Assembly: GCF_000730425.1 (NCBI RefSeq)
Contig: NZ_CP008896.1
Span: forward strand, 4,340,001-4,404,000
DNA length: 64,000 nucleotides
DNA from: Pseudomonas fluorescens
GTDB lineage: Bacteria > Pseudomonadota > Gammaproteobacteria > Pseudomonadales > Pseudomonadaceae
Direction: 5' to 3'
Part shown: piece after piece, positions 5,941 through 22,018 of the stretch
Numbering within the stretch: position 1 is the stretch's first letter
Layout of the letters: each line of letters opens with the position of its first letter
Translations under genes and position numbers: made by a program
Notes under the pieces: model-generated
What the model was told of the DNA's origin: nothing
What the model saw: only the letters and a program-made list of their open reading frames with translations
The model's database searches: none

Positions 5941-7305
5941 TTAGGACAGTAGGTCTCTGAGGACCTGTGTGAAGGCGCGGCTGCTCTCTTCCTCGCCCGC
6001 ATGATGCCCATCGCGCACCACCCACTGGCCATTGACCAGCACATCGCGCACTTGCCGATCACCCCCGGCAAACAGCCAGCGGTTGAGAATCCCGTCTTCA
6101 CTGGCCGTCGCCAGGTACGGATCGTTGCCGTCCAGCACCAGCCAGTCGGCGCGCTTGCCCGCTTCCAGGCGGCCAATCGGTTGCCCCAGTGCCTGGGCGC
6201 CACCGTCGAGGGCTGCGTCAAACAGGGTGCGGCCGACCATCGGCTGGTCGCTGCGATACAGCCGGTTGCGCCGCTGGTCGCGCAGGCGCTGGCCGTATTC
6301 CAGCCAGCGCAATTCCTCGACCACGCTCAATGACACATGGCTGTCCGAGCCAATCCCCATGCGCCCGCCCTGGGCCAGGAAGTCCACCGCAGGGAAAATC
6401 CCGTCGCCCAGGTTGGCTTCAGTGGTCAGGCACAGCCCGGCAATGGCTCGGCTGCTGGCCATCAGCGTCACTTCGTCGGGGTTGGCGTGGGTGGCGTGTA
6501 CCAGGCACCAGCGCTGATCGACGTCGACATTGTCATACAGCCATTGCAGCGGGCGCTTGCCGCTCCAGGCCAGGCAATCATCGACTTCCTTTTGCTGTTC
6601 GGCGATATGGATATGCACCGGGCAGGCCTGGTCGCTGGCGGCCAATACTTCGCGGATCTGCTGCGGGGTGACCGCACGCAACGAGTGGAAACACAGGCCC
6701 AGTTGCTGCGCCGGTTGTGCGGCCACTATCGGTTGCAAACGCGCTTGCAGGTCCAGGTAGTTGTCGGTGCTGTTGATAAAGCGGCGCTGGCCGTCGTTCG
6801 GTGCCTGGCCACCAAAGCCCGAGTGGCTGTAAAGCACCGGCAGCAACGTCAGGCCGATCCCGCTGCTGGCTGCCGCCAGGCTGATCTGGCGTGACAGTTC
6901 GGTAGGGTCGGCGTAAGGCTGGCCGCTGAGATCGTGATGCACATAGTGGAACTCGGCGACCGAGGTGTAGCCGGCCTTGAGCATCTCGATGTACAGCTGG
7001 CGGGCGATGATCTGCAACTGCTCGGGGCTGATCTGGCCGACCATGCGGTACATCAGGTCGCGCCAGGTCCAGAAACTGTCATTGGGGTTGCCGGCGACTT
7101 CCGCCAGCCCCGCCATGGCCCGTTGAAACGCGTGGGAATGCAGGTTCGGCATGCCCGGCAACACGGGGCCTCTCAACCGCTCGGCGCCGTCTGCGCTGGC
7201 ATTGGCCGTAACGTTGGCCAACAGGCCATGGGCACTGACTTCAAGACGTACATCAGTGGCCCATCCATTAGGCAGCAGCGCGCGTTCGGCAAAGAAAGCG
7301 GACAT
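5941..7305 (-). CDS. hutF: Formimidoylglutamate deiminase
   Basis: A 454-residue amidohydrolase that converts N-formimino-L-glutamate to N-formyl-L-glutamate and ammonia, the penultimate step of the five-step histidine pathway. The metal-binding 'HSH' (His56, His58 in 'GMPNLHSHAFQR') is present, as are later ligands in 'LVHATHANPDE' and 'GIGSDSH'. ATG at 7305 ('MSAFFAERALL') is preferred over an in-frame TTG two codons upstream. The gene is divergent from hutC and shares an intergenic region that contains a HutC-type palindrome. HutG, which uses its product, is at the far end of the locus. Confidence 0.96.
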   Translation of the reverse strand: MSAFFAERALLPNGWATDVRLEVSAHGLLANVTANASADGAERLRGPVLPGMPNLHSHAFQRAMAGLAEVAGNPNDSFWTWRDLMYRMVGQISPEQLQIIARQLYIEMLKAGYTSVAEFHYVHHDLSGQPYADPTELSRQISLAAASSGIGLTLLPVLYSHSGFGGQAPNDGQRRFINSTDNYLDLQARLQPIVAAQPAQQLGLCFHSLRAVTPQQIREVLAASDQACPVHIHIAEQQKEVDDCLAWSGKRPLQWLYDNVDVDQRWCLVHATHANPDEVTLMASSRAIAGLCLTTEANLGDGIFPAVDFLAQGGRMGIGSDSHVSLSVVEELRWLEYGQRLRDQRRNRLYRSDQPMVGRTLFDAALDGGAQALGQPIGRLEAGKRADWLVLDGNDPYLATASEDGILNRWLFAGGDRQVRDVLVNGQWVVRDGHHAGEEESSRAFTQVLRDLLS

Positions 7306-7413: not shown

Positions 7414-8163
7414 GTGCCGACTCCGCCCGCCAAGTCCCCGCTGGCTGCCCACATGGACGAAAGTCCGGCGCCCTTGTATGCCCGCGTCAAGCAGATGATC
7501 AGCCAGCAGATTCTCAACGGCAACTGGCCGCCGCACTATCGCGTGCCGTCGGAAAGCGAGCTGGTCAGCCAGCTGGGCTTTAGCCGCATGACCATCAATC
7601 GGGCCCTGCGGGAGCTGACTGCCGAAGGGCTGCTGGTGCGCATGCAAGGCGTCGGCACGTTTGTCGCCGAGCCCAAGAGCCAGTCGGCGCTGTTCGAGGT
7701 GCATAACATTGCCGATGAGATTGCCTCCCGTGGCCATCGCCACACCTGCAAGGTCATTACCCTGGGCGAAGAAGCCGCGGGCTCGGAACGCGCCGTGGCC
7801 CTGGAAATGCGCGAAGGCGGGCGGGTGTTCCACTCGCTGATCGTGCACTACGAGAACGATATCCCGGTGCAAATCGAAGACCGCTTCGTCAACGCCTTGG
7901 TGGCGCCGCAATACCTGCAACAGGATTTCACCCTGCAAACCCCCTACGCCTATCTCAACCAGGTGGCACCGCTGACCGAGGGCGAGCATGTGGTGGAGGC
8001 GATCCTGGCCGACCCGCAGGAATGCAAGCTGTTGCAGATCGAGGCGGGTGAGCCGTGCCTGCTGATTCGCCGGCGCACCTGGTCCGGGCGCCAGCCGGTG
8101 ACCGCTGCACGCCTGATCCACCCCGGCTCGCGCCACAGCCTCGAAGGACGTTTCAGCAAATGA
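7414..8163 (+). CDS. hutC: Histidine utilisation repressor HutC
   Basis: A 249-residue GntR-family repressor. A winged-helix domain occupies about residues 18-86 ('LYARVKQMI', 'YRVPSESELVSQLGFSRMTI'). A UTRA effector domain fills the rest and in this family binds urocanate, releasing the hut promoters. I chose GTG at 7414 ('PTPPAKSPLAAHM') with 'AAGGA' upstream, because longer in-frame extensions run through the divergent promoter. The last base of its final sense codon and the first two of its TGA form the ATG of hutD (ATGA), so the two are translationally coupled. Palindromes near hutF/hutC, hutU and the codB-like gene are its likely targets. Confidence 0.95.
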   Translation: MPTPPAKSPLAAHMDESPAPLYARVKQMISQQILNGNWPPHYRVPSESELVSQLGFSRMTINRALRELTAEGLLVRMQGVGTFVAEPKSQSALFEVHNIADEIASRGHRHTCKVITLGEEAAGSERAVALEMREGGRVFHSLIVHYENDIPVQIEDRFVNALVAPQYLQQDFTLQTPYAYLNQVAPLTEGEHVVEAILADPQECKLLQIEAGEPCLLIRRRTWSGRQPVTAARLIHPGSRHSLEGRFSK

Positions 8164-8720
8164 GTGCAGTAAGGGTTTGGCGCGCTGCCGATTACGTACG
8201 CATGCCGTGGAAAAATGGCGGTGGCAGCACCGAAGAAATCACCCGCGACGCTGGCCTGGGCCTCGACGGTTTTGGCTGGCGCCTGTCGATTGCCGATATT
8301 GGCGAGTCGGGTGGGTTTTCCACGTTTGCCGGGTATCAGCGGGTGATTACCGTGATCCAGGGCGCGGGCATGGTGTTGACCGTGGACGGCGAAGAGCAGC
8401 GCGGGTTGCTGCCCCTGCAACCGTTTGCCTTCAAGGGTGAAAGCCAGGTGGCGTGCCGCTTGATCAGTGGGCCGATTCGCGATTTCAACCTGATCTATTC
8501 GCCCACGCGTTACCACGCGCGGCTGCAATGGCTGGATGGGGCGCAGCAGTTGTTCAGTACGGCGCACACCGTGCTGGTGTTCAGTGTGGCCGATGAGGTG
8601 AAGGTGCTGGGCGAAGTGCTCGGTCATCATGATTGCTTGCAGGTGGACGGTAACACCGGCCTGTTGGACATTGCAGTAACTGGCCGCTGCTGCATCATCG
8701 AACTGACCGCACGCGCTTAA
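8160..8720 (+). CDS. hutD: HutD family protein
   Basis: A 186-residue cupin-like protein with the HutD hallmark 'MPWKNGGGSTEEI' near residues 16-28 and a later 'PFAFKGE' strand. HutD is found in hut loci of many proteobacteria and is thought to moderate hut expression, perhaps by binding a pathway intermediate. No catalytic activity is established. The start ATG overlaps the hutC stop. A REP doublet separates it from the hutU promoter region. Confidence 0.93.
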   Translation: MSAVRVWRAADYVRMPWKNGGGSTEEITRDAGLGLDGFGWRLSIADIGESGGFSTFAGYQRVITVIQGAGMVLTVDGEEQRGLLPLQPFAFKGESQVACRLISGPIRDFNLIYSPTRYHARLQWLDGAQQLFSTAHTVLVFSVADEVKVLGEVLGHHDCLQVDGNTGLLDIAVTGRCCIIELTARA

Positions 8721-9054: not shown

Positions 9055-9132
9055 TAAAGGTGTGTGCATAAGAGTCGCTAGACATCCTCTTCGCACCATC
9101 GTGTTCGCGCATCGATTGCTGAGGAGTTTTTT

Positions 9133-10818
9133 GTGACTGACTTTTCCCAGAACAAGCCTACCAAGTACCGCGACGTTGAAATCCGCGCCGCCCGTGGCAA
9201 CACGCTCACCGCCAAAAGCTGGCTGACTGAAGCGCCGCTGCGCATGCTGATGAACAACCTCGACCCACAAGTGGCCGAGAACCCGAAAGAGCTGGTGGTG
9301 TACGGCGGTATCGGTCGTGCGGCGCGTAACTGGGAGTGTTACGACCAGATCGTCGAAAGCCTCACTCACCTGAACGATGACGAAACCCTGCTGGTGCAGT
9401 CCGGCAAGCCGGTGGGCGTGTTCAAGACCCACAGCAACGCCCCGCGCGTGCTGATTGCCAACTCCAACCTGGTACCGCACTGGGCCAGTTGGGAACACTT
9501 CAACGAACTGGATGCCAAGGGCCTGGCCATGTATGGCCAGATGACCGCCGGCAGCTGGATCTACATCGGTAGCCAGGGCATCGTCCAGGGTACCTACGAA
9601 ACTTTCGTCGAGGCTGGCCGCCAGCATTACGACAGCAATCTGAAAGGCCGTTGGGTCCTCACGGCCGGCCTCGGCGGCATGGGTGGCGCCCAGCCGCTGG
9701 CTGCGACCCTGGCTGGCGCGTGCTCGCTGAACATTGAATGCCAGCAGGTCAGTATCGACTTCCGCTTGAACAGCCGTTATGTCGATGAACAAGCCACCGA
9801 CCTCGACGACGCCCTGGCGCGCATCGCCAAGTACACCCAGGAAGGTAAGGCCATCTCCATCGCCCTGCTGGGTAACGCGGCTGAAATTCTGCCCGAGCTG
9901 GTCAAGCGCGGCGTGCGCCCGGACATGGTCACCGACCAGACCAGCGCCCACGACCCGCTCAATGGCTACCTGCCCGCTGGCTGGACCTGGGACGAGTACC
10001 GCGCCCGCGCCAAGACCGAGCCCGCCGCCGTGATCAAGGCTGCCAAACAGTCGATGGCCGTGCACGTCAAAGCGATGCTCGCGTTCCAGAAACAAGGCAT
10101 TCCGACCTTCGACTACGGCAATAACATTCGTCAGATGGCGCAAGAAGAAGGTGTGGAAAATGCCTTCGACTTCCCGGGTTTTGTGCCGGCCTATATCCGC
10201 CCGCTGTTCTGCCGTGGCATCGGCCCGTTCCGTTGGGCGGCCCTGTCGGGCGACCCGCAAGATATCTACAAGACCGACGCCAAGGTCAAAGAGCTGATCC
10301 CCGACGATGCCCACCTGCACAACTGGCTGGACATGGCCCGTGAGCGCATCAGCTTCCAGGGCCTGCCGGCGCGTATCTGCTGGGTCGGCCTGGGCCAGCG
10401 CGCCAAGCTCGGCCTGGCGTTCAACGAAATGGTGCGCAGCGGCGAGTTGTCGGCACCGGTGGTGATCGGTCGTGACCACCTCGACTCCGGCTCGGTGTCG
10501 AGCCCGAACCGCGAAACCGAATCCATGCAGGACGGTTCCGATGCCGTGTCCGACTGGCCACTGCTCAACGCCTTGCTCAACACCGCCAGCGGCGCGACCT
10601 GGGTTTCGCTGCACCACGGCGGTGGCGTGGGCATGGGCTTCTCCCAGCATTCGGGCATGGTGATCGTGTGTGACGGCACCGACGAAGCTGCCGAGCGGAT
10701 TGCCCGCGTACTGCACAACGACCCGGCCACTGGGGTGATGCGCCACGCCGATGCGGGCTATCAGATCGCTATCGACTGCGCCAAGGAACAGGGCCTCAAT
10801 CTCCCGATGATCAAGTAG
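9133..10818 (+). CDS. hutU: Urocanate hydratase
   Basis: A 561-residue cytoplasmic enzyme that hydrates urocanate to imidazolone propionate using tightly bound NAD+. The dinucleotide-binding glycine cluster '[12 protein letters not shown]' is near residue 178. Cys416 in 'ARICWVGLG' appears to correspond to the active-site cysteine of P. putida urocanase. The start is GTG at 9133 with 'GAGGAG' upstream. It heads the long rightward hut run and is preceded by the sigma-54 element and HutC palindrome. The length is normal. Confidence 0.97.
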
Positions 10819-10834
10819 CGCCTGGCTCGGTTCC

Positions 10835-10923
10835 TGTGGGAGCCGGGCTTGCCCGCGATGGCATCACTGGGGTCTGCCTGACGGACCACAGTGATGCCAT
10901 CGCAGGCAAGCCAGCTCCTACAT
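10835..10923. repeat. REP doublet
   Basis: 'TGTGGGAGCCGGGCTTGCCC' and the imperfect complement 'AGGCAAGCCAGCTCCTACA' lie between hutU and the codB-like permease. The arms have diverged. Confidence 0.8.
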
Positions 10924-10932
10924 TTGACCGGC

Positions 10933-10942
10933 TGTGTACACA
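10933..10942. promoter_or_regulatory. Possible HutC operator before the codB-like permease
   Basis: TGTGTACACA is a perfect palindrome that fits the GTNTANAC core of HutC-subfamily sites. It lies 54 bases before the permease start, so this gene may have its own HutC-controlled promoter. Confidence 0.4.
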
Positions 10943-10995
10943 AGACCTGTTTTATCCGCATCACCGAATAACAATCCATTAGAGGTTGAACACCC

Positions 10996-12465
10996 ATGGC
11001 TGCAAAAGACGCGCGTGCAAGCTCCACCCCGTTGATCGAAAGGCGTTCGATCGACTACATCCCGCAAGCGGAAAGACACGGTCGTCTATTTAGCCAGTTC
11101 ACCCTGTGGATGGGGGCCAACCTGCAAATCACCGCGATTGTCACCGGGGCCCTGGCGGTGGTGCTGGGCGGCGACGTGTTCTGGTCGTTGATCGGTCTGT
11201 TGATCGGTCAACTGCTGGGCGGCGGCGTGATGGCGTTGCATGCAGCACAAGGGCCGAAGCTTGGCCTGCCGCAGATGATCTCCAGTCGGGTGCAGTTCGG
11301 TGTGTATGGCGCGGCGATTCCGATTGTGCTGGTGTGCTTGATGTACCTCGGTTTCACCGCAACCGGCACCGTGCTTTCCGGCCAGGCCCTGGGCCAGTTG
11401 TTTGGAGTCAGCGACAGTGTCGGCATCCTGATCTTCGCCAGCGTCATCGTGCTGGTCACGGTGCTCGGTTATCGGGTGATCCATTTCATTGGCCGTGTCG
11501 CCAGCGTCATTGGGGTGATCGCCTTTGTCTACCTGTTCAGCCGCTTGATGAGCCAGACCGACGTTGGCGCGCTCCTGCAAATCCGTCACTTCAACGGGAG
11601 CAGCTTCCTGCTGGCGGTGTCGCTCGCGGCGTCCTGGCAAATCGCCTTCGGGCCTTACGTGGCGGACTATTCCCGCTACCTGCCGCGCAAGACGTCCTCG
11701 GTGAAAACCTTTCTGGCCGCAGGCGCAGGGTCGGTCATCGGTGCTCAGGTGGCGATGATTCTCGGCGTGTTTGCCGCCGCCATGTCCAACGGGCAATTTG
11801 TCGGTAATGAAGTGGCCTACATCGTTGGCCTGGGCGGCACGGGGGCCGCGGCTGCGCTGCTGTACTTCAGCATCGCGTTTGGCAAGGTCACCATCTCCAC
11901 GCTGAACTCCTACGGCAGCTTCATGTGCATTGCGACCATCGTCAGTGGTTTTCGTGGGCGCCTGGAAGTCACGCGCTTGCAGCGCCTGGTTTTCGTGCTG
12001 CTGATTGTCGGTGCTGCGACCCTGATCGCGTTGCTCGGCCAGCACGCGTTCCTCAGTGCGTTCAAGTCCTTCATTCTGTTTTTGCTGGCGTTCTTTACGC
12101 CATGGAGTGCGATCAACCTGGTGGACTACTACTGCATCACCCGTGATCGCTATGACGTGCCGGCACTGGCCGATCCGAACGGTCGCTATGGCCGCTGGAA
12201 CCCGCTGGGTATCAGCGTCTATGTCTTCGGGGTGCTGGTGCAGCTGCCGTTTATCGCCACCAAGTTCTACACCGGTCCTCTGGTCGCCGCCTTGGGTGGG
12301 GTGGATATTTCCTGGATCATCGGCCTGGTACTGCCTGCCGCCCTGTATTACGTGTGCGCGAAAAAATGGCATGGCGCGATTCCCGAACGACTGATCCTGC
12401 CGGCAGAGCAGGGCGCTACACCCGTAGTTACCCCTAAAAACAATGGGCTGATTGCACAAGCCTGA
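10996..12465 (+). CDS. hutTu: NCS1 (codB-like) permease, likely urocanate transporter
   Basis: A 489-residue inner-membrane protein with about 12 hydrophobic segments and the NCS1 cytosine/purine permease pattern ('FTLWMGANLQITAIVTGAL' near the N-terminus, 'GPKLGLPQMISSRVQFGVYG' after segment 2). Within the hut locus its substrate should be a pathway compound. In P. fluorescens the codB-like hut permease was, to my recollection, reported as the urocanate transporter, so that name is assigned by position. ATG at 10996 follows 'AGAGG'. No key residue looks missing. Confidence 0.85.
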   Translation: MAAKDARASSTPLIERRSIDYIPQAERHGRLFSQFTLWMGANLQITAIVTGALAVVLGGDVFWSLIGLLIGQLLGGGVMALHAAQGPKLGLPQMISSRVQFGVYGAAIPIVLVCLMYLGFTATGTVLSGQALGQLFGVSDSVGILIFASVIVLVTVLGYRVIHFIGRVASVIGVIAFVYLFSRLMSQTDVGALLQIRHFNGSSFLLAVSLAASWQIAFGPYVADYSRYLPRKTSSVKTFLAAGAGSVIGAQVAMILGVFAAAMSNGQFVGNEVAYIVGLGGTGAAAALLYFSIAFGKVTISTLNSYGSFMCIATIVSGFRGRLEVTRLQRLVFVLLIVGAATLIALLGQHAFLSAFKSFILFLLAFFTPWSAINLVDYYCITRDRYDVPALADPNGRYGRWNPLGISVYVFGVLVQLPFIATKFYTGPLVAALGGVDISWIIGLVLPAALYYVCAKKWHGAIPERLILPAEQGATPVVTPKNNGLIAQA

Positions 12466-12533: not shown

Positions 12534-13502
12534 ATGAGAATGCATAAGACCCTGCTGACCACACTGTTCGCCGCAGGCCTGCTGGCAGGCGCTGGCGCCA
12601 CCCAGGCGGCCGGTTGGTGCGAGTCGGGCAAGCCGGTGAAGTTCGCCGGCCTGAACTGGGAAAGCGGCATGCTGCTGACCGACGTCCTGCAAGTGGTCCT
12701 GGAGAAAGGCTACGACTGCAAAACCGATAGCCTGCCGGGCAATTCCATCACCATGGAGAACGCCCTGGGCAGCAACGATATTCAGGTCTTCGCCGAAGAG
12801 TGGGTTGGCCGTAGCGAAGTGTGGAAAAAGGCAGAAAAAGCCGGGAAAGTCGTGGGTGTCGGCGCACCCGTGGTCGGGGCCGTTGAAGGCTGGTACGTGC
12901 CGCGCTACGTGATTGAAGGCGACGCCAAGCGCAAGCTCGAAGCCAAGGCCCCGGACCTGAAGAACATTGCCGACCTGGCCAAGTACTCTGCGGTATTCAA
13001 GGACCAGGAGGAGCCATCCAAGGGGCGCTTCTACAACTGCCCGGCTGGCTGGACCTGCGAGCTGGACAACAGCGAAATGCTCAAGAGCTATGGGTTGGAA
13101 AATTCCTACACCAACTTCCGCCCAGGCACCGGCCCGGCGCTGGATGCGGCGGTGCTGTCGAGCTACAAGCGTGGCGAGCCGATCCTGTTCTACTACTGGT
13201 CGCCCACGCCGCTGATGGGCCAGGTGGACCTGGTGAAACTCGACGAAAAACCCGGCGTGGATAAAAGCGTGACCATCAAGATCGGCCTGTCCAAGACCTT
13301 CCACGAGCAGGCCCCGGAACTGGTGGCGGTGCTGGAGAAGGTCAACCTGCCGATCGACCTGCTCAACCAGAACCTGGCGCGCATGAGCAAGGAACGCATT
13401 GAGTCGTCGAAGTTGGCGAAGATTTTCCTCAAGGAACACCCGGAAGTCTGGCACACCTGGGTCAGTGAAGACGCAGCCAAGAAAATCGACGCGGCCTTGT
13501 AG
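12534..13502 (+). CDS. hutX: Histidine ABC transporter, substrate-binding protein
   Basis: A 322-residue periplasmic binding protein of the glycine-betaine/choline (ProX/OpuAC) class. A signal peptide ends near residue 25 ('GATQA'), and the mature protein starts with 'GWCESGKPVKFAGLNWESG'. The paired cysteines in 'FYNCPAGWTCELD' are typical of this class. It is followed by a matching permease and ATPase, so it delivers histidine or a related compound to HutWV. ATG at 12534 follows 'GGGAG'. An ATG two codons later is also possible. Confidence 0.92.
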   Translation: MRMHKTLLTTLFAAGLLAGAGATQAAGWCESGKPVKFAGLNWESGMLLTDVLQVVLEKGYDCKTDSLPGNSITMENALGSNDIQVFAEEWVGRSEVWKKAEKAGKVVGVGAPVVGAVEGWYVPRYVIEGDAKRKLEAKAPDLKNIADLAKYSAVFKDQEEPSKGRFYNCPAGWTCELDNSEMLKSYGLENSYTNFRPGTGPALDAAVLSSYKRGEPILFYYWSPTPLMGQVDLVKLDEKPGVDKSVTIKIGLSKTFHEQAPELVAVLEKVNLPIDLLNQNLARMSKERIESSKLAKIFLKEHPEVWHTWVSEDAAKKIDAAL

Positions 13503-13574: not shown

Positions 13575-14426
13575 ATGTTTCCTGAGAGTTTTACGTTTTC
13601 CATCGCCGACTGGGTCAATGGTTGGGTCGATGGGTTGGTGACCAACTACGGCGATGTGTTCCGGCAGATTTCCGACACCTTGCTGTGGGCCATCGTCAAC
13701 CTGGAAGGCCTGCTGCGCATGGCGCCCTGGTGGCTGATGCTGGCGATCGTCGGTGGCATTGCCTGGCACGCCACCCGCAAGTTAGTGACCACGGCCGTGA
13801 TCGTCGGCCTGCTGTTCCTGGTGGGGGCGGTCGGCCTGTGGGACAAGCTGATGCAGACCTTGGCGCTGATGATGGTGGCCACGGTGATCTCGGTGCTGAT
13901 CGGCATTCCCCTGGGCATCCTCTCGGCACGTAGCAATCGCCTGCGCTCGGTACTGATGCCGTTGCTGGACATCATGCAGACCATGCCCAGCTTCGTGTAC
14001 CTGATCCCGGTATTGATGCTGTTTGGCCTGGGCAAGGTGCCGGCGATTTTCGCCACGGTGATCTACGCCGCGCCACCGCTGATTCGCCTGACCGACCTGG
14101 GCATTCGCCAGGTGGACCGTGAAGTGATGGAAGCCATCAATGCCTTCGGCGCCAACCGCTGGCAGCAACTGTTTGGCGTGCAACTGCCGCTGGCCCTGCC
14201 GAGCATCATGGCCGGGATCAACCAGACCACCATGATGGCCCTGTCGATGGTGGTGATCGCCTCGATGATCGGCGCCCGTGGCCTGGGTGAAGATGTACTG
14301 GTCGGCATCCAGACCCTTAACGTCGGGCGCGGGCTTGAAGCCGGCCTGGCGATTGTGATTCTCGCAGTGGTCATCGACCGCATTACCCAGGCCTACGGTC
14401 GTCCACGGCATGAGGCGAGCAAATGA
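13575..14426 (+). CDS. hutW: Histidine ABC transporter, permease
   Basis: A 283-residue membrane protein of the ProW/OpuAB permease family with about six to seven hydrophobic segments. The cytoplasmic coupling motif is seen as '[20 protein letters not shown]', where the ATPase docks. It lies 72 bases after hutX, and its stop overlaps the hutV start (ATGA). This is the only permease of the transporter, so it presumably acts as a homodimer. Confidence 0.93.
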
Positions 14427-15247
14427 CTATTGTCAGCAAGATTGAAGTGAAAAACGTATTCAAGATTTTCGGTGCACGGGACAAAGAAGCCCTGGCTCTT
14501 ATCGGCCAGGGCAAGACCAAGGACGAAGTCCTGGCGCAGACCGGTTGTGTGGTGGGGGTCAATGACCTGTCCCTGAGCATCGGCACCGGCGAGATCTTTG
14601 TGATCATGGGCCTGTCGGGTTCTGGCAAGTCCACCCTGGTGCGCCACTTCAACCGCCTGATCGACCCCACCAGCGGCGCGATCCTGGTGGACGGCGAAGA
14701 CATTCTGCAACTGGATATGGGCGCCTTGCGCCAGTTCCGCCGGCACAAGATCAGCATGGTGTTCCAGAGCTTCGGCCTGCTGCCCCACAAGAGCGTGCTG
14801 GACAACGTCGCCTATGGCCTGAAAGTGCGCGGCGAAAGCAAGCAGGTGTGTGCCGAGCGCGCCTTGCACTGGATCGCAACCGTGGGCCTGAAGGGTTACG
14901 AAAACAAATACCCACACCAGCTGTCGGGTGGCATGCGCCAGCGTGTGGGCCTGGCCCGGGCCCTGGCGGCCGACACCGACATCATCCTGATGGACGAGGC
15001 GTTCAGTGCCCTCGACCCGCTGATCCGCGCCGAGATGCAGGACCAATTGCTGGAACTGCAAAAGACTCTGCACAAGACCATCGTGTTTATCACCCACGAC
15101 CTGGACGAAGCCGTGCGCATCGGCAACCGCATCGCGATCCTCAAGGACGGCAAGCTGATCCAGGTCGGCACGCCGCGGGAAATTTTGCATTCGCCGGCGG
15201 ATGAATATGTGGATCGGTTTGTCCAGCGGCGGGCGGCGGTGGTCTGA
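14423..15247 (+). CDS. hutV: Histidine ABC transporter, ATP-binding protein
   Basis: A 274-residue ABC ATPase of the ProV/OpuAA type. Walker A 'GLSGSGKS' is at residues 63-70, followed by Q-loop '[13 protein letters not shown]', signature 'LSGGMRQR', Walker B 'IILMDEA' and the H-loop 'FITHDLDEA'. An N-terminal extension before the first strand is shared with ProV proteins. The C-terminal CBS domains that sense ionic strength in OpuA are absent, consistent with a nutrient uptake system rather than an osmoregulated one. Confidence 0.94.
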
Positions 15248-15274
15248 GCCGGGTTTTGTGGTGAGTTGGCTGGC

Positions 15275-15350
15275 CTCTTCGCGAGCAAGCCCGCTCCCAC
15301 AGGGGAGCGCATTGCAAATGTGGCCGCGGGCTTGCCCGCGATGAGGCCGA
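15275..15350. repeat. REP doublet
   Basis: 'GCGAGCAAGCCCGCTCCCAC' and a diverged inverted copy, 'GTGGCCGCGGGCTTGCCCGC', lie between hutV and hutH1. Confidence 0.75.
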
Positions 15351-15383
15351 CAAGGCTGCACAAGAATTGAAGAAGGTATGAAG

Positions 15384-16907
15384 ATGTCCCAGGCTAGAAA
15401 AATCATTATCGCCGACACGCCCCTGCGCTGGCAGGACGTGGTCGCCGTCGCCCGCTTCGGCGCCGAGCTGGAGCTGTCGGGCCAGGCCTGGGCACGCATC
15501 GACAATGCCCAGGCCATCGTGCAACGCATCGTCAGCAGCGGCGAGCGCGCCTATGGCGTCAATACCGGCCTGGGCGCCTTGTGCAACGTATCGCTCAAGG
15601 GCGAGCAATTGAGCCAGCTGTCGCGCAACACCCTGCTCAGCCATGCCTGTGGCGTCGGTGCGCCGCTGAGTGATGAACAGACCCGCGCCATCATCTGCGC
15701 GGCCATCCTCAACTACACCCAGGGTAAGTCCGGCCTGCATCCACAGGTGGTGCATTCGCTGCTGGCGCTGCTCAACCATGGCATCACCCCGCAAGTGCCG
15801 TCCCAGGGGTCGGTGGGCTACCTGACCCACATGGCCCATATCGGTATTGCCTTGCTGGGTGTGGGCAATGTCAGCTACCGCGGCCAGATCGTTGCCGCCC
15901 AGGCAGCCTTGGCCGCCGAAGGCCTGCAGCCGGTGGTACTCGGCGCCAAGGACGGCCTGTGTCTGGTCAACGGCACGCCGTGCATGAGTGGCCTGAGCTG
16001 CCTGGCCCTGGCCGATGCCCACCATTTGCTGCAATGGGCCGATGTGATCGGGGCCATGAGCTTTGAAGCACAGCGCGGCCAGATCGACGCGTTCGACGAG
16101 CAGATCATTGCCCTCAAGCCGCACCCGGGCATGCAGCAGGTCGGCAGTAACCTGCGGGCCTTGCTCGACGGCAGTGAGGTCATTGCTGCCAGCAGGGGCA
16201 TTCGTACCCAGGACGCGCTGAGCATCCGTTCGATTCCCCAGGTCCACGGCGCCGCCCGCGATCAACTGGAACACGCCACCCGGCAGATCGAAACCGAACT
16301 CAACGGCGCCACCGACAACCCGTTGCTGCTGGGCACGCCGGACAACTACCGCGTGGTGTCCCAGGCCAACCCCCACGGCCAGTCCGTGGCTCTGGCGGCA
16401 GACATGCTGGCCATCGCGCTGGCCGAGATCGGCGCCATCGCCGAGCGCCGCCTCGACCGCCTGATCAACCCCCACGTCAGCGGCCTGCCGGCGTTCCTGG
16501 TGAGCAACCCCGGGGTCAACTCGGGGATGATGATTGTGCAGTACGTCGCCGCGTCCCTCTGTGGGCAGAATCGTCAACTGGCACAGCCGGCGGTCCTCGA
16601 CAATTTCGTCACCTCGGGCCTGCAGGAAGACCATCTGAGCATGGGCACCAATGCCGCGCTCAAGCTGCATGCCGTGCTGGGCAACGTCACCCAGATCCTC
16701 GCCATCGAATACCTGCTGGCGGCCCAGGCCTTTGAGTTTTTGAAGGACCAAGGCTTCGGCACCGGTACCGACATTGCTTGGCGCCTGCTGCGCGAGCACG
16801 TCCCGGCCTATGAGCAGGACCGCTGGCTGGCGCCGGATATCGCGACCACCGCAACGCTGCTCAAGAACACCGATTTGCTGAATCACGCTTTACCGAATGT
16901 GCACTGA
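15384..16907 (+). CDS. hutH1: Histidase-like protein lacking the MIO motif
   Basis: A 507-residue member of the HAL/PAL ammonia-lyase family, similar in length to HutH2. Tyr ('AYGVNTGLG'), His ('LSHACG'), Asn ('LVNGTP') and Glu ('LQEDHLSM') positions are kept. The Ala-Ser-Gly triad that cyclises into the MIO electrophile is cleanly deleted: 'GSVG' (residues 142-145) runs directly into 'YLTHMAHIG'. The catalytic Tyr of 'PYSLR' in HutH2 is Leu279 ('ALSIR'). It is therefore unlikely to be a histidase and may be structural, regulatory or a different enzyme. I chose ATG 15384 because AAGG lies 7 bases upstream. ATG 15378 would leave only 1 base. Confidence 0.88.
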
Positions 16908-16932: not shown

Positions 16933-18465
16933 GTGACTGCGCTAAATCTGATCCCAGGCCAACTGAGCCTTGCCCAACTGCGTGCCATCTACCAGCAGCC
17001 GGTAACCCTCAGCCTGGATGACAGCGCCACGGCGCAGATCGAAGCCAGTGTGGCCTGTGTCGAACAGATCCTCGCCGAGAACCGTACCGCCTATGGCATC
17101 AACACCGGTTTCGGCCTGCTGGCCTCGACCCGTATCGCCAGCGAAGACCTGGAAAACCTCCAGCGCTCCCTGGTGTTGTCCCATGCCGCGGGCGTTGGCG
17201 AGCCGATCAGCGATGCGCTGGTGCGTCTGGTGATGGTGCTCAAGGTCAACAGCCTGAGCCGGGGTTTTTCCGGGATTCGTCGCCAGGTGATCGACGCGTT
17301 GATCGCGCTGGTCAACGCCGAGGTTTACCCGCATATCCCGCTCAAGGGCTCGGTGGGGGCTTCCGGTGACCTGGCGCCGCTGGCCCACATGTCCCTGGTG
17401 CTGCTCGGCGAAGGCAAGGCCCGTTACAAAGGGCAATGGCTGGAGGCCACCGAAGCGCTGAAAGTTGCCGGCCTTACGCCTCTGACCCTGGCCGCCAAGG
17501 AAGGCCTGGCGCTGCTCAACGGCACCCAAGTCTCCACCGCCTACGCCCTGCGCGGTTTGTTTGAAGGTGAAGACCTGTTCGCCGCCGCCATCGCCTGTGG
17601 CGGCCTGACCGTGGAAGCGGTGCTGGGCTCGCGTTCACCGTTCGATGCACGCATTCATGCGGCCCGTGGCCAGCGTGGGCAGATCGATTCGGCGGCGGCT
17701 TATCGCGACCTGCTCGGTGACAGCAGCCAGGTGTCCCAGTCCCACCAGAACTGCGACAAGGTACAAGATCCCTACTCCCTGCGTTGCCAGCCACAAGTCA
17801 TGGGCGCCTGCCTGACCCAGTTCCGCCAGGCGGCAGAGGTGCTGGTGGTCGAAGCCAACGCAGTCTCGGATAACCCGCTGGTCTTCGCCGCTGAAGGCGA
17901 CGTGATCTCCGGCGGTAACTTCCACGCTGAACCGGTGGCGATGGCCGCTGACAACATGGCCCTGGCCATCGCCGAAATTGGCTCTCTGAGCGAGCGCCGC
18001 ATCTCGTTGATGATGGACAAGCACATGTCGCAACTGCCGCCGTTCCTGGTAGGCAATGGCGGGGTGAACTCCGGTTTCATGATTGCCCAGGTGACGGCAG
18101 CGGCGTTGGCCAGCGAGAACAAGGCGCTGTCCCATCCCCATAGCGTCGACAGCCTGCCTACGTCGGCCAACCAGGAAGATCACGTGTCCATGGCCCCAGC
18201 TGCCGGTAAGCGCTTGTGGGAAATGGCTGAAAACACCCGTGGCATTCTCGCGGTGGAATGGCTGGCCGCGTGCCAGGGCCTGGACCTGCGCGATGGCCTG
18301 AAAACCTCGCCGAAGCTGGAACAGGCCCGTGGCATCCTGCGCGCCAAAGTAGGGTTCTATGACAAGGACCGCTTCTTCGCCCCGGACATCAACGCCGCCA
18401 GCGAACTGTTGGCCAGCCGCTGCCTGAACGAGCTGGTACCCGCCAAGCTGCTGCCAAGCCTCTAA
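16933..18465 (+). CDS. hutH2: Histidine ammonia-lyase
   Basis: A 510-residue enzyme that deaminates L-histidine to urocanate. It has the intact MIO triad 'ASG' (Ser144) in '[16 protein letters not shown]', and Tyr281 and Arg284 in 'DPYSLRCQ' match the catalytic positions known in P. putida HutH. I chose GTG at 16933 because AGGAG is 7 bases upstream and the N-terminus ('[12 protein letters not shown]') and length then match P. putida. The in-frame ATG at 16927 would sit only one base after the SD. It lies 25 bases after hutH1 and is the only complete histidase in the locus. Confidence 0.96.
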
Positions 18466-18481
18466 ACACTCCCCCGATCCC

Positions 18482-18522
18482 GTGTGGGAGCTGCCTCGCC
18501 AAGGCTCGACAGCTCCCACAGG
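18482..18522. repeat. Short REP-like hairpin
   Basis: 'TGTGGGAGCTG' and 'CAGCTCCCACA' form a single hairpin between hutH2 and hutT. There is no T-run, so it is more likely a REP remnant than a terminator. Confidence 0.65.
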
Positions 18523-18575
18523 TGATCGTCCATAGGTTCGGATTCTCTCTGGATAACAATAATTAGGGACGAGAA

Positions 18576-19985
18576 ATGCACCAGCAAGCACAAGGTTTGA
18601 AACGCGGACTGACCGCCCGCCATATTCGCTTCATGGCACTGGGGTCGGCGATCGGCACCGGGTTGTTCTACGGCTCTGCCTCGGCTATCCAGATGGCGGG
18701 CCCGGCGGTGTTGCTGGCCTACCTGATCGGTGGCGCCGCTGTGTTCATGGTCATGCGCGCCCTCGGCGAAATGGCCGTGCACAATCCGGTGTCCGGTTCC
18801 TTTGGCCAGTACGCCAGCACCTACCTGGGGCCGATGGCCGGTTTTATCCTCGGCTGGACCTATGCCTTCGAGATGATCATCGTCTGCCTGGCCGACGTCA
18901 CCGCCTTCGGCATCTATATGGGCTTCTGGTTTCCCGAGGTCGCACGCTGGGTCTGGGTGCTCGGCATTGTCCTGCTGATCGGCGGGCTGAACCTGTGCAA
19001 CGTCAAGGTGTTTGGCGAAATGGAGTTCTGGCTGTCGCTGCTCAAGGTCGGCGCGATTGTCGCGATGATCCTCGGTGGCTTCGGCATCATGCTGTTCGGC
19101 GTGCATTCGGCCGGTGATGCGCCCGCCAGTGGGTTGAGTAACCTGTGGGCCCATGGCGGCTTCATGCCCAATGGCGTGGGTGGCTTGATCGCCTCGTTTG
19201 CGGTGGTGATGTTTGCCTTTGGCGGCATCGAAATCATCGGCATCACGGCCGGTGAAGCCAAGGACCCGCAACGGGTGATCCCCAAGGCGATCAATGCGGT
19301 GCCACTGCGCATCCTGCTGTTCTACGTGCTGACCCTGTTTGTGCTGATGGCCATCTATCCATGGCCGCAGATCGGCAGCCAGGGCAGCCCGTTCGTACAG
19401 ATCTTCAGCAACCTGGGGATTGGCTCGGCGGCGACCATTCTCAATATTGTGGTGATCTCGGCGGCAGTCTCGGCCATCAACAGTGACATCTTCGGCGCAG
19501 GCCGCATGATGTACGGCCTGGCCCAGCAAGGGCAGGCGCCCAGGGGCTTTGCGCAACTGTCGCGTCATGGCGTGCCGTGGATGACCGTGGTGGTGATGGG
19601 CGCCGCGCTGCTGGGCGGCGTGGTGTTGAACTACCTGATCCCGGAAAACGTATTCCTGGTGATTGCCTCGATTGCCACGTTCGCCACCGTGTGGGTCTGG
19701 CTGATGATCCTGGTCACGCAGGTGGCGATGCGCCGCTCGATGAGCAAGGAACAGATCGCCGAACTGAAATTCCCGGTACCGTTCTGGCCCTATGCGCCGG
19801 CGGCGGCCATTGTCTTCATGCTGTTTATTTTTGGCGTACTGGGCTATTTCCCGGACACCCAGGCGGCGCTATTGGTGGGGGCGGCGTGGATTGTGCTGCT
19901 GGTCGTCGCCTACCTGCTGTGGGTCAAGCCGGCAGCCGGGCAAGCGGCCAAGGTCCATTACGACCCGGCTTTGTCTCATCGATAA
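18576..19985 (+). CDS. hutTh: Histidine permease, APC family
   Basis: A 469-residue proton-coupled amino-acid permease with 12 hydrophobic segments. The N-terminus, '[20 protein letters not shown]', is the classic start of the AAT branch of the APC superfamily, close to ProY/HutT. Its position between hutH2 and hutI points to histidine as substrate. 'AGGGACGAGAA' precedes the ATG. With the codB-like permease and HutXWV it makes three transport systems in one catabolic locus. Confidence 0.92.
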
Positions 19986-20000
19986 TTTAGGGAGGCGTTG

Positions 20001-21206
20001 ATGAAAACGCTTTGGCAACACTGCCACATCGCAACCATGGCCCGGGGCGAGTACTCGATCATCGAGGATGGCGCCATCGTCACGGCCGGTACGCTGATCG
20101 AGTGGATCGGCCCCCGGGCCGAGCTGCCGGCTGGCGACTACGCGCAGACCCATGACCTGCAAGGTGCGTGGGTCACGCCGGGATTGATCGACTGCCACAC
20201 CCATACGGTGTTTGGCGGCAACCGCAGCGGTGAATTCGAGCAGCGCTTGCAGGGCGTGAGCTACGCCGAGATCGCCGCGGCCGGTGGTGGCATTGCCAGC
20301 ACTGTGCGTGCCACCCGCGCGGCGACCGAGGACGAGCTGTTCGACAGCAGCCGCAAGCGCCTGCGCAGTTTGCTGCGCGATGGTGTGACCACGGTAGAGA
20401 TCAAGTCCGGCTACGGCCTGGACCTGGCCAACGAGCGCAAGATGCTGCGGGTGGCCCGGCGCCTGGGCCAGGAGTTGCCGGTCAGCGTGCGCGCCACGTG
20501 CCTGGCGGCCCATGCGTTGCCGCCGGAGTACAAGGACCGCGCCGACGACTACATCGAACATATCTGCAATGAGATGCTGCCAGCCCTGGCCGCTGAAGGG
20601 TTGGTGGATGCCGTGGATGCGTTCTGCGAATACCTGGCGTTTTCCACCGAGCAGGTCGAGCGTGTGTTCAAGGTCGCCCAGCGTTTGGGCTTGCCGGTAA
20701 AACTGCACGCCGAGCAATTGTCGTCCCTGCACGGCTCCAGCCTCGCCGCGCGGTATCAGGCATTGTCGGCGGATCATCTGGAATTCATGACCGAAGAAGA
20801 TGCCATCGCCATGGCCGCCTCCGGCACTGTCGCCGTGCTATTGCCGGGGGCGTTCTACTTCCTGCGTGAAACCCAATTGCCACCGATGGACGCCTTGCGC
20901 AAGCACGGGGTGAAGATCGCCATCGCCAGCGACCTCAACCCCGGTACCTCGCCCGCCTTGTCACTACGGCTGATGTTGAACATGGCCTGCACGCTGTTTC
21001 GCATGACCCCGGAAGAAGCCCTGGCCGGCGCCACCCGGCATGCCGCCACGGCGCTGGGCATGGGCGACACCCACGGTTCGCTGGAAGTGGGCAAGATTGC
21101 GGATTTTGTCGCCTGGCAGATCGATCGCCCTGCCGACCTGGCCTACTGGCTGGGCGGCGAGCTGGATAAACGCGTCGTGCGCCATGGCGTCGACGCCACT
21201 GTGTAA
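20001..21206 (+). CDS. hutI: Imidazolonepropionase
   Basis: A 401-residue metal-dependent amidohydrolase that opens the imidazolone ring to give N-formimino-L-glutamate, the substrate of HutF. The metal site '[15 protein letters not shown]' is present, and the later 'KLHAEQLS' and '[10 protein letters not shown]' blocks carry the remaining ligands. ATG at 20001 follows 'AGGGAGG'. The gene is separated from hutT by 15 bases and from hutG by 11 bases. Confidence 0.97.
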
Positions 21207-21217
21207 GGAGTCGTGTT

Positions 21218-22018
21218 GTGGATAAGGTTCTGAATTTCAAACAAGGCCGCGTGCCACTGCTGGTCAGCATGCCCCACGCCGGCCTGCGCCTGACGCCTGC
21301 GGTCGAGTCGGGCCTGATCCCTGAGGCGCAAAGCCTGCCGGATACCGACTGGCATATCCCCACGCTGTACGATTTTGCCCAGGAGTTGGGGGCCAGCACC
21401 CTGGCGGCCGAGTATTCGCGGTTTGTCATCGACCTCAATCGGCCCTCGGACGATAAGCCGTTGTATGCCGGTGCGACCACGGGCCTTTATCCCGCAACGC
21501 TGTTTGACGGCGTGTCGCTGTTTCGTGAGGGGCTGGAACCGTCGAAGGCGGAGCGGGCAACCTATCTGGAGCAGATCTGGACCCCGTACCACCGCACCCT
21601 GCAAGAGGAACTGGCGCGACTCAAGGCCGAGTTCGGCTATGCGCTGCTGTTCGACGCCCACTCCATCCGCTCGGTGATCCCCCATCTGTTCGACGGCAAG
21701 CTGCCGGACTTCAATCTCGGCACTTTCAACGGCGCCTCCTGCGACCCGCAACTGGCCAGCCAGCTGGAAGCGATCTGCGCGGCGCACCCGCAGTACAGCC
21801 ATGTACTGAACGGGCGTTTCAAGGGCGGGCACATCACCCGGCACTATGGCAACCCGGCCGAGCATATCCATGCGGTACAACTGGAGCTTGGGCAGTGTAC
21901 GTATATGGAGGAGTTCGAGCCGTTCAGGTATCGGCAGGATTTGGCCGAGCCGACGCGGGTGGTGTTGAAGCAGTTGTTGCAAGGATTCCTGGCCTGGGGC
22001 CAGAAGCACTACACCTGA
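21218..22018 (+). CDS. hutG: N-formylglutamate deformylase
   Basis: A 266-residue hydrolase that releases formate and glutamate from N-formyl-L-glutamate, the last step of the HutF-dependent branch. The family pattern is clear ('LLVSMPHAGLRLTP', 'FVIDLNRPSDDKPLY', 'LFDAHSIRSVIP'), with the His/Asp residues expected for zinc. The start is GTG at 21218 with 'AAGGAG' seven bases before it. The presence of both hutF and hutG shows the pathway avoids a one-step formiminoglutamase. Confidence 0.95.
   Translation: MDKVLNFKQGRVPLLVSMPHAGLRLTPAVESGLIPEAQSLPDTDWHIPTLYDFAQELGASTLAAEYSRFVIDLNRPSDDKPLYAGATTGLYPATLFDGVSLFREGLEPSKAERATYLEQIWTPYHRTLQEELARLKAEFGYALLFDAHSIRSVIPHLFDGKLPDFNLGTFNGASCDPQLASQLEAICAAHPQYSHVLNGRFKGGHITRHYGNPAEHIHAVQLELGQCTYMEEFEPFRYRQDLAEPTRVVLKQLLQGFLAWGQKHYT

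Follow-up and report, generated by a model that had tools for sequence, protein, structure and literature searches.

HutH1 of Pseudomonas fluorescens, a histidase-fold protein lacking the MIO triad, is proposed to be a hercynine trimethylamine-lyase

A 64,000-nucleotide stretch of Pseudomonas fluorescens DNA (NZ_CP008896.1, positions 4,340,001 to 4,404,000; the whole stretch is called the window below) was analysed with respect to hutH1, the extra histidase-like gene of its histidine utilisation (hut) cluster. From sequence comparisons, HutH1 is proposed to be a lyase that works without the 4-methylideneimidazol-5-one (MIO) cofactor and would split hercynine (N-alpha-trimethylhistidine, histidine betaine) into urocanate and trimethylamine; a probability of about 0.68 was assigned to this reading. 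Hercynine was the best-fitting compound considered, because HutH1 combines a histidine-binding pocket and the loss of MIO, Tyr280 and Phe329 with a betaine-type transporter and the urocanate pathway. The substrate and the reaction are inferred, as is hercynine import through HutXWV. With barely less confidence, the hutXWV-hutH1 and BCCT-hutH1 gene units described below were read as hercynine catabolic modules, and the MIO-free 'hercynase' as a second entrance to histidine utilisation.

The hutH1 reading frame starts at 15378 or, more likely, at 15384 and is open to a stop at 16907. Residue numbers and roles used here, including those of the histidine-binding residues, are the ones that we take to hold for histidine ammonia-lyase (HAL) of Pseudomonas putida. 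HutH1 was aligned pairwise with the neighbouring HutH2 (37% identity), and at the MIO site 11 residues of HutH1 face 14 of HutH2, a net difference of three. The first-pass annotation had claimed a loss of Ala-Ser-Gly after GSVG. The alignment bears this out if Asp145 is paired with Tyr146; in an alternative alignment ASGD is replaced by Y. No X-Ser-Gly triad remains at the site, in agreement with the annotation's view that MIO cannot form. Its further claim that the catalytic Tyr of PYSLR is Leu was also correct: QDPYSLR of HutH2 is QDALSIR in HutH1, placing Leu at Tyr280.

Related loci were located with the peptides SVGYLTHM and TSGLQEDH. The best 80 of 595 relative-encoding stretches, ranked by likeness to a Halomonas-type protein, were retained, with L033 as the 81st locus. 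Seven loci do not contain SVGYLTHM and therefore entered via TSGLQEDH; the triad is absent in these too. Counterparts of Tyr53, His83, Asn195, Gln277, Arg283, His330, Met382 and Glu414 are present in 81/81 loci, and the pocket residues of 17 diverse HutH1 rows agree with the 81-locus alignment. The annotation was thus right that the pocket Tyr, His, Asn, Arg and Glu are kept; it overlooked the change of Phe329 to Pro and a two-residue gap upstream of QDALSIR in the alignment with HutH2. An AlphaFold model of HutH1 (predicted local distance difference test score 89.2, predicted template modelling score 0.91) has the histidase/ergothionase fold, matching both over nearly the whole length, and so the overall fold of the aromatic amino acid lyase superfamily. 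Canonical HutH (TIGR01225; PDB 1b8f; HutH2) shares this fold and the substrate-binding residues with HutH1 but has the MIO triad and Tyr280, both missing from HutH1. HutH1 also scored 533.7 bits against the equivalog TIGR01225, under its cut-off of 539.15, and 548 against the broader subfamily PRK09367, over its cut-off of 524. Mutants Y280F, F329A, F329G and D145A of P. putida HAL are present in the PDB.

The triad was absent, and Leu occupied position 280, in all 210 of the closest proteins listed (the best 120 of 7150 plus the best 120 of 7953 matches) and in 81/81 loci. The MIO-site stretch was the same 11 residues as in the window in 209 of the 210 proteins and GSVAYLTHMAH in one. Nearly all of the named proteins among the best 120 of 7150 matches come from Pseudomonas. 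Being common to both sets, the deletion and the Leu are fixed and not chance changes; the alignment of homologues that the first-pass annotation had proposed therefore found both fixed among the relatives examined. Orthologues of HutH1 (at least 78% identity) were found in 26/36 Pseudomonas genomes, with no internal stop in any of the 26, and 21 genomes of the same order outside Pseudomonas gave no match above 43% identity. The loci come from Pseudomonas, Halomonas/Vreelandella, Salinicola, Zobellella, Oceanimonas, Paracoccus, Prodigiosinella and one gammaproteobacterial metagenome-assembled genome (MAG). The exact MIO-less DNA pattern occurred in 2/369 genomes sampled evenly from the class, one of them this genome, and by these searches the family looks rare outside Pseudomonas and a few other genera. 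Databases often name its members 'histidine ammonia-lyase'.

Median ratios of nonsynonymous to synonymous substitution (dN/dS) were 0.11 for HutH1, 0.07 for HutH2 and 0.06 for HutU (561 pairs, 34 strains). The strains were drawn from the 81 loci and the window, wherever HutH1, HutH2 and HutU all exceeded 70% identity and 90% coverage; each frame was cut from stop to stop, and the lack of internal stops in this set is by construction. By these comparisons HutH1 is an intact gene under purifying selection and is not decaying, as the annotation had held from its kept pocket residues and reading frame. Two HutV-HutH1 'fusion' proteins (P0136 and P0137) were excluded as evidence, because their HutV part is truncated or shifts to another frame, a pattern that errors of sequencing or assembly would produce.

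Ergothionase, which splits ergothioneine into trimethylamine and thiourocanic acid, works without MIO (PMC13405746; this and the other papers cited by PMC number were consulted in excerpt). The MIO site of the Treponema denticola enzyme (6s7j) reads SSIGEGDITTLSH (loop SSIGEGD), one residue shorter than in HAL, and the later motif is QDPLSFR, with Leu at the Tyr280 position. Like HutH1, 6s7j has the histidase fold, no Ala-Ser-Gly and counterparts of Tyr53, Arg283 and Glu414. Across the alignment, Tyr280 was present in 19/19 MIO-containing rows and Leu in 19/19 MIO-less rows. The product of L049:14056-15591 (Salinicola corii) has 6s7j as its nearest structure (1.4e-78), and among its ergothionase-like relatives (best 120 of 650) ASGD was found in 0/120 and QDPLS[YF]R in 120/120. 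This ergothionase homologue, like HutH1, adjoins a betaine-type transporter. Unlike HutH1, which retains histidase Asn195, His330, Met382 and Gln413 (Gln413 is Arg in 1/17 rows), both ergothionase rows differ from HAL at these four positions. The MIO-site loop is two residues shorter in HutH1 than in ergothionase, and HutH1, unlike ergothionase, sits in or feeds the urocanate pathway.

The window and 16 loci supplied the 17 HutH1 rows of a tree that also included 16 HutH rows, 14 ergothionase-type rows and 3 others. The HutH1 rows formed a single clade (support 100/100), and the HutH1 and ergothionase groups shared one side of a branch with support 97/92, or 94/86 after 6s7j and the trait columns had been removed. 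The alternative grouping of HutH1 with HutH was not rejected (p = 0.056 in the approximately unbiased test), and long branches meet here. HutH1 is probably an enzyme that works in the manner of ergothionase on a histidase fold while being neither a member of the ergothionase clade nor a canonical histidase. In S. corii the ergothionase-like gene lies about 375 bases behind the hut cluster, and after it come genes for an OpuAC-type binding protein and an ATPase with two permease-like open reading frames (ORFs) between them; L049:14056-20696 is probably a separate ergothioneine catabolic cluster.

The gene upstream of hutH1 was available in 80/81 loci: 63 have hutV there and 16 a BCCT carrier, and the remaining one, L072, was counted as hutW, with a hutV match also present upstream of hutH1. 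A betaine-type transporter gene, of one of two unrelated kinds (hutXWV or BCCT), lay directly upstream in 79/80. The carrier of L033 is Pfam BCCT. ORF starts were set at the first start codon, which makes the 8 to 95 bases by which the BCCT and hutH1 ORFs overlap upper bounds. As a control, 13 canonical HutH loci not adjoining HutH1 were examined within 1.5 kb; none had a betaine-type transporter gene there, and hutU lay upstream in six. HutX Trp residues 41, 89, 119, 172 and 221 (counted from 12537), which line up with Trp residues of the betaine-type protein 7yle, were invariant in 64/64 orthologues aligned. Orthologues of HutX (at least 77%) were present in 25 of the 26 HutH1-bearing Pseudomonas genomes and in 0/10 others. 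Genome G023 (L128, about 9100-12300) lacks hutX and keeps hutW, hutV and hutH1; the gene order of this locus is otherwise hut operon-like, without hutH2 between hutH1 and hutI.

Eighteen of the 81 loci had no hutU, hutI, hutG or hutF in the stretch examined (mostly 10 kb on each side, less in a few), and 16 of these were hutXWV-hutH1 units with no other hut genes there. A divergent LysR gene accompanied 15 of the 16 units (L061 and 14 others at 93-98% identity to L061). Judging from organism names, we take most of the 16 to belong to the P. putida group. In G438 (P. soli) and G439 (P. putida), a hut locus with hutU, canonical hutH and hutTh lies elsewhere than the HutH1 unit. In Pseudomonas cuatrocienegasensis (L046), BCCT-hutH1 is followed further on by hutXWV, which has no hutH1 of its own in the stretch examined. 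The two transporter kinds upstream of hutH1 are the quaternary-amine ABC (ATP-binding cassette) family of HutXWV, ProXWV and ChoXWV, and the BCCT carriers; in the excerpts consulted, no member of either is characterised as a hercynine transporter. For EgtU, an ergothioneine-specific transporter, binding of hercynine is about 10,000-fold weaker (PMC9732360).

In the proposed reaction, hercynine would be imported by the betaine-type transporter encoded just upstream of hutH1 (HutXWV in the window, BCCT elsewhere) and its imidazole and carboxylate gripped by HutH1 in the histidase manner. A base, probably the Tyr53 counterpart, would remove the beta proton, and trimethylamine would depart, leaving urocanate. 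Urocanate would then be converted to glutamate via HutU, HutI, HutF and HutG and would also induce the operon through HutC. In histidases, MIO makes a good leaving group of NH3, which is a poor one. With a quaternary nitrogen the leaving group is good from the start, and there is no lone pair through which it could bond to MIO. MIO would thus be dispensable in HutH1, because trimethylammonium leaves unaided and is unable to form an adduct with MIO. In the window, HutU scored 1018.5 against a urocanate hydratase cut-off of 375 and fell under the cut-offs of both the thiourocanate and the S-methyl thiourocanate hydratase models. This fits urocanate rather than thiourocanate as the product, with the qualification that HutU is needed for histidine itself as well. 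The first-pass annotation had suggested a non-lyase role, with a MIO-free reaction among its options; the MIO-free reaction is the option favoured here, and it is probably still a lyase reaction.

Canonical HutH was identified by identity (51-85%) in 13/15 HutH1 genomes, in seven of which the triad was read. Two assemblies from Salinicola, the MAG G434 and S. corii L3 (G435), gave no detectable canonical HutH; their matches were HutH1, a 34% paralogue and, in G435, the ergothionase-like protein. Both assemblies carry the cluster hutD-hutC-hutF-hutU-BCCT-hutH1-hutI-hutG with a single hutU, the product of which is 88% identical to HutU of the window. In a further locus (G033:C1:1366042-1369165, covered in part by L015), HutH1 is intact and the canonical HutH behind it is split into two ORF pieces, which could reflect an error in sequencing or a strain that naturally lacks HutH2.

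Several alternatives to hercynine cleavage were weighed. That HutH1 is a lyase of another N-methylated or substituted imidazole amino acid (e.g., mono- or dimethylhistidine) or of another aromatic betaine is unlikely, although the evidence fixes a dispensable MIO and a quaternary-amine transporter better than it fixes the exact compound. By established chemistry, mono- and dimethylamines leave poorly when MIO is absent, and the kept imidazole-binding residues and the downstream hut pathway indicate a histidine skeleton. Slightly less likely again is that HutH1 is itself an ergothionase yielding thiourocanate and trimethylamine. The shared loss of MIO and of Tyr280, the betaine-type transporters and the common side of the branch in both trees favour this, and it is opposed by the separate HutH1 clade, by the four histidase residues that HutH1 keeps and both ergothionase rows have altered, by the urocanate-type HutU that accompanies HutH1 and by the presence in S. 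corii of an ergothionase-like gene beside its own OpuAC-type transporter.

A non-enzymatic HutH1, either regulating or stabilising HutH2 in a hetero-oligomer or sensing histidine or urocanate, was rated slightly below an ergothionase. Such a role would agree with the absence of MIO and with the adjacency of hutH1 and hutH2 in the window and many loci; against it stand the kept remaining catalytic residues and the transporter, rather than HutH2, as near-constant neighbour. The hetero-oligomer with HutH2, an idea of the first-pass annotation, is made unlikely by the Salinicola assemblies without detectable HutH and by the standalone units, which in G438 and G439 include a divergent LysR gene and are separate from the hut locus that carries hutU and canonical hutH. 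A pure ligand sensor, another of its ideas, fits poorly, explaining neither the tie to transporters nor the Salinicola case. Deamination of histidine itself by a MIO-free route is improbable: the histidine-binding residues are kept, but NH3 is a poor leaving group without MIO, 13/15 HutH1 genomes also have canonical HutH by sequence, and hutH1 of P. fluorescens SBW25 is not required for growth on histidine (PMC8871633). The last result accords with the annotation's naming of hutH2 as the functional copy, in that HutH1 is not the growth histidase on histidine. Very improbable is a slowly decaying duplicate, for which the loss of MIO and a dN/dS above that of HutH2 might be cited; the same changes recur in the 210 listed relatives and all 81 loci, the family is one old clade spanning Pseudomonas, Halomonas-type genera, Zobellella, Oceanimonas, Paracoccus and Prodigiosinella, and its frames are free of internal stops in 26/26 genomes of the genus, with dN/dS at 0.11.

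A number of observations weigh against cleavage of hercynine by HutH1. L117 (Prodigiosinella), one of the 63 hutV loci, has a polar-amino-acid-type ABC transporter upstream of hutH1. HutH1 lies outside the clade that unites characterised ergothionase with its near relatives, and MIO loss and Leu280 may each stem from one or two events, so that the sequences sharing them are not independent. At position 329 HutH1 has Pro where ergothionase has Phe, and HutH1 carries Leu in place of HAL Asn412; the two pockets are therefore not identical. The dN/dS of HutH1 exceeds that of HutH2 (0.11 vs 0.07), which implies somewhat weaker constraint. The Salinicola assemblies are of unreported completeness, and their third HAL paralogue has an intact MIO triad, with Lys and Gln for Met382 and Glu414; we take this pair to be typical of phenylalanine or tyrosine lyases. 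No P. aeruginosa protein was named among the best 120 of 7953 matches. PA5093 of P. aeruginosa is probably the histidase-like (HutH1) gene, and both a hutG label for it and the identity of a gene deleted under that label are then doubtful. A deletion labelled hutG (PA5093) impairs growth of P. aeruginosa on histidine in a study that labels PA5092 hutI (PMC12772324); if PA5093 is the HutH1 gene and was truly deleted, this would favour a role in histidine use and, with it, histidine deamination. HutXWV is reported to contribute to histidine uptake by P. fluorescens (PMC8871633), so that its presence is no sure sign of a betaine, and the same finding suits histidine as substrate. Among the papers listed by searches of the open-access literature, no hercynine or histidine-betaine lyase was seen, and none of the excerpts consulted gives hercynine as a lyase substrate. 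A table in PMC8069873 lists both hutH genes; neither this nor PMC9002059 weighs on either side.

Features of the window are collected in Table 1. PMC8871633 describes hutTu as a urocanate transporter. Inspection by eye only showed short GC-rich repeats of the repetitive extragenic palindromic kind at 15260-15350 (hutV/hutH1 gap) and 18475-18525 (hutH2/hutTh gap). A third histidase-fold gene of the same genome lies outside the window (G000:C1:4438733-4440097, L034); its product has the MIO triad intact, with Lys in place of Met382 and Gln in place of Glu414, and matches of similar strength (32-35% identity) occur in many related genomes. A gene for a 2-oxoglutarate-Fe(II) oxygenase recurs near hut clusters or canonical hutH (L033:447-1418 and L036, both of G421; L039; L123), in two Halomonas-type genomes and one Pseudomonas.

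Table 1. Coordinates of the hut genes of the window and of sites within hutH1
Feature	Position	Strand	Remark
hutF, formimidoylglutamate deiminase	5941..7305	-	divergent from hutC
hutC, histidine utilisation repressor	7453..8163	+	start approximate
hutD	8160..8720	+	named via likeness to L051:7838-8353 (Pfam HutD); no NCBIfam model at 1e-40
hutU, urocanate hydratase	9133..10818	+	above TIGR01228, below thiourocanate hydratase cut-offs
hutTu, NCS1-type permease	10996..12465	+	name by operon position
hutX, glycine-betaine-type substrate-binding protein	12540..13502	+	Pfam OpuAC, 1.2e-61
hutW, ABC permease	13575..14426	+	nearest NCBIfam model is choline permease, below its cut-off
hutV, ABC ATPase	14423..15247	+	directly upstream of hutH1; above cut-off of betaine/proline/choline subfamily TIGR01186
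hutH1, MIO-less histidase-fold protein	15384..16907	+	507 aa; proposed hercynine trimethylamine-lyase
Site of absent Ala-Ser-Gly in HutH1	15807..15839	+	11 residues, gap between residues 145 and 147
Leu279 of HutH1	16218..16220	+	counterpart of HAL Tyr280; Leu in ergothionase too
Pro330 of HutH1	16371..16373	+	counterpart of HAL Phe329; Pro in 80/81 loci, Cys in one (Paracoccus)
hutH2, canonical histidine ammonia-lyase	16933..18465	+	MIO triad intact; GTG start likely
hutTh, amino-acid permease	18576..19985	+	nearest model ProY, below cut-off; name by operon position
hutI, imidazolonepropionase	19998..21206	+	
hutG, N-formylglutamate deformylase	21218..22018	+	

The hut pathway is a textbook pathway, and the literature excerpts consulted assign no role to its extra histidase gene. 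Hercynine is the precursor of ergothioneine (PMC7653990), and histidine betaine from Microcoleus vaginatus is depleted in soil crust, although none of the isolates used it (Baran et al. 2015, PMC4595634). If HutH1 cleaves hercynine, the hut pathway would gain a second substrate, and these bacteria would release trimethylamine from hercynine; many 'histidine ammonia-lyase' names in Pseudomonas and Halomonas-type genera would give the wrong reaction, and the keeping of two histidase genes by many pseudomonads would be explained. The gene module would give a direct route to the consumers of soil-crust histidine betaine. HutH1 would also be the second case, after ergothionase, of a cofactor-free histidase fold acting on a leaving group that is already quaternary.

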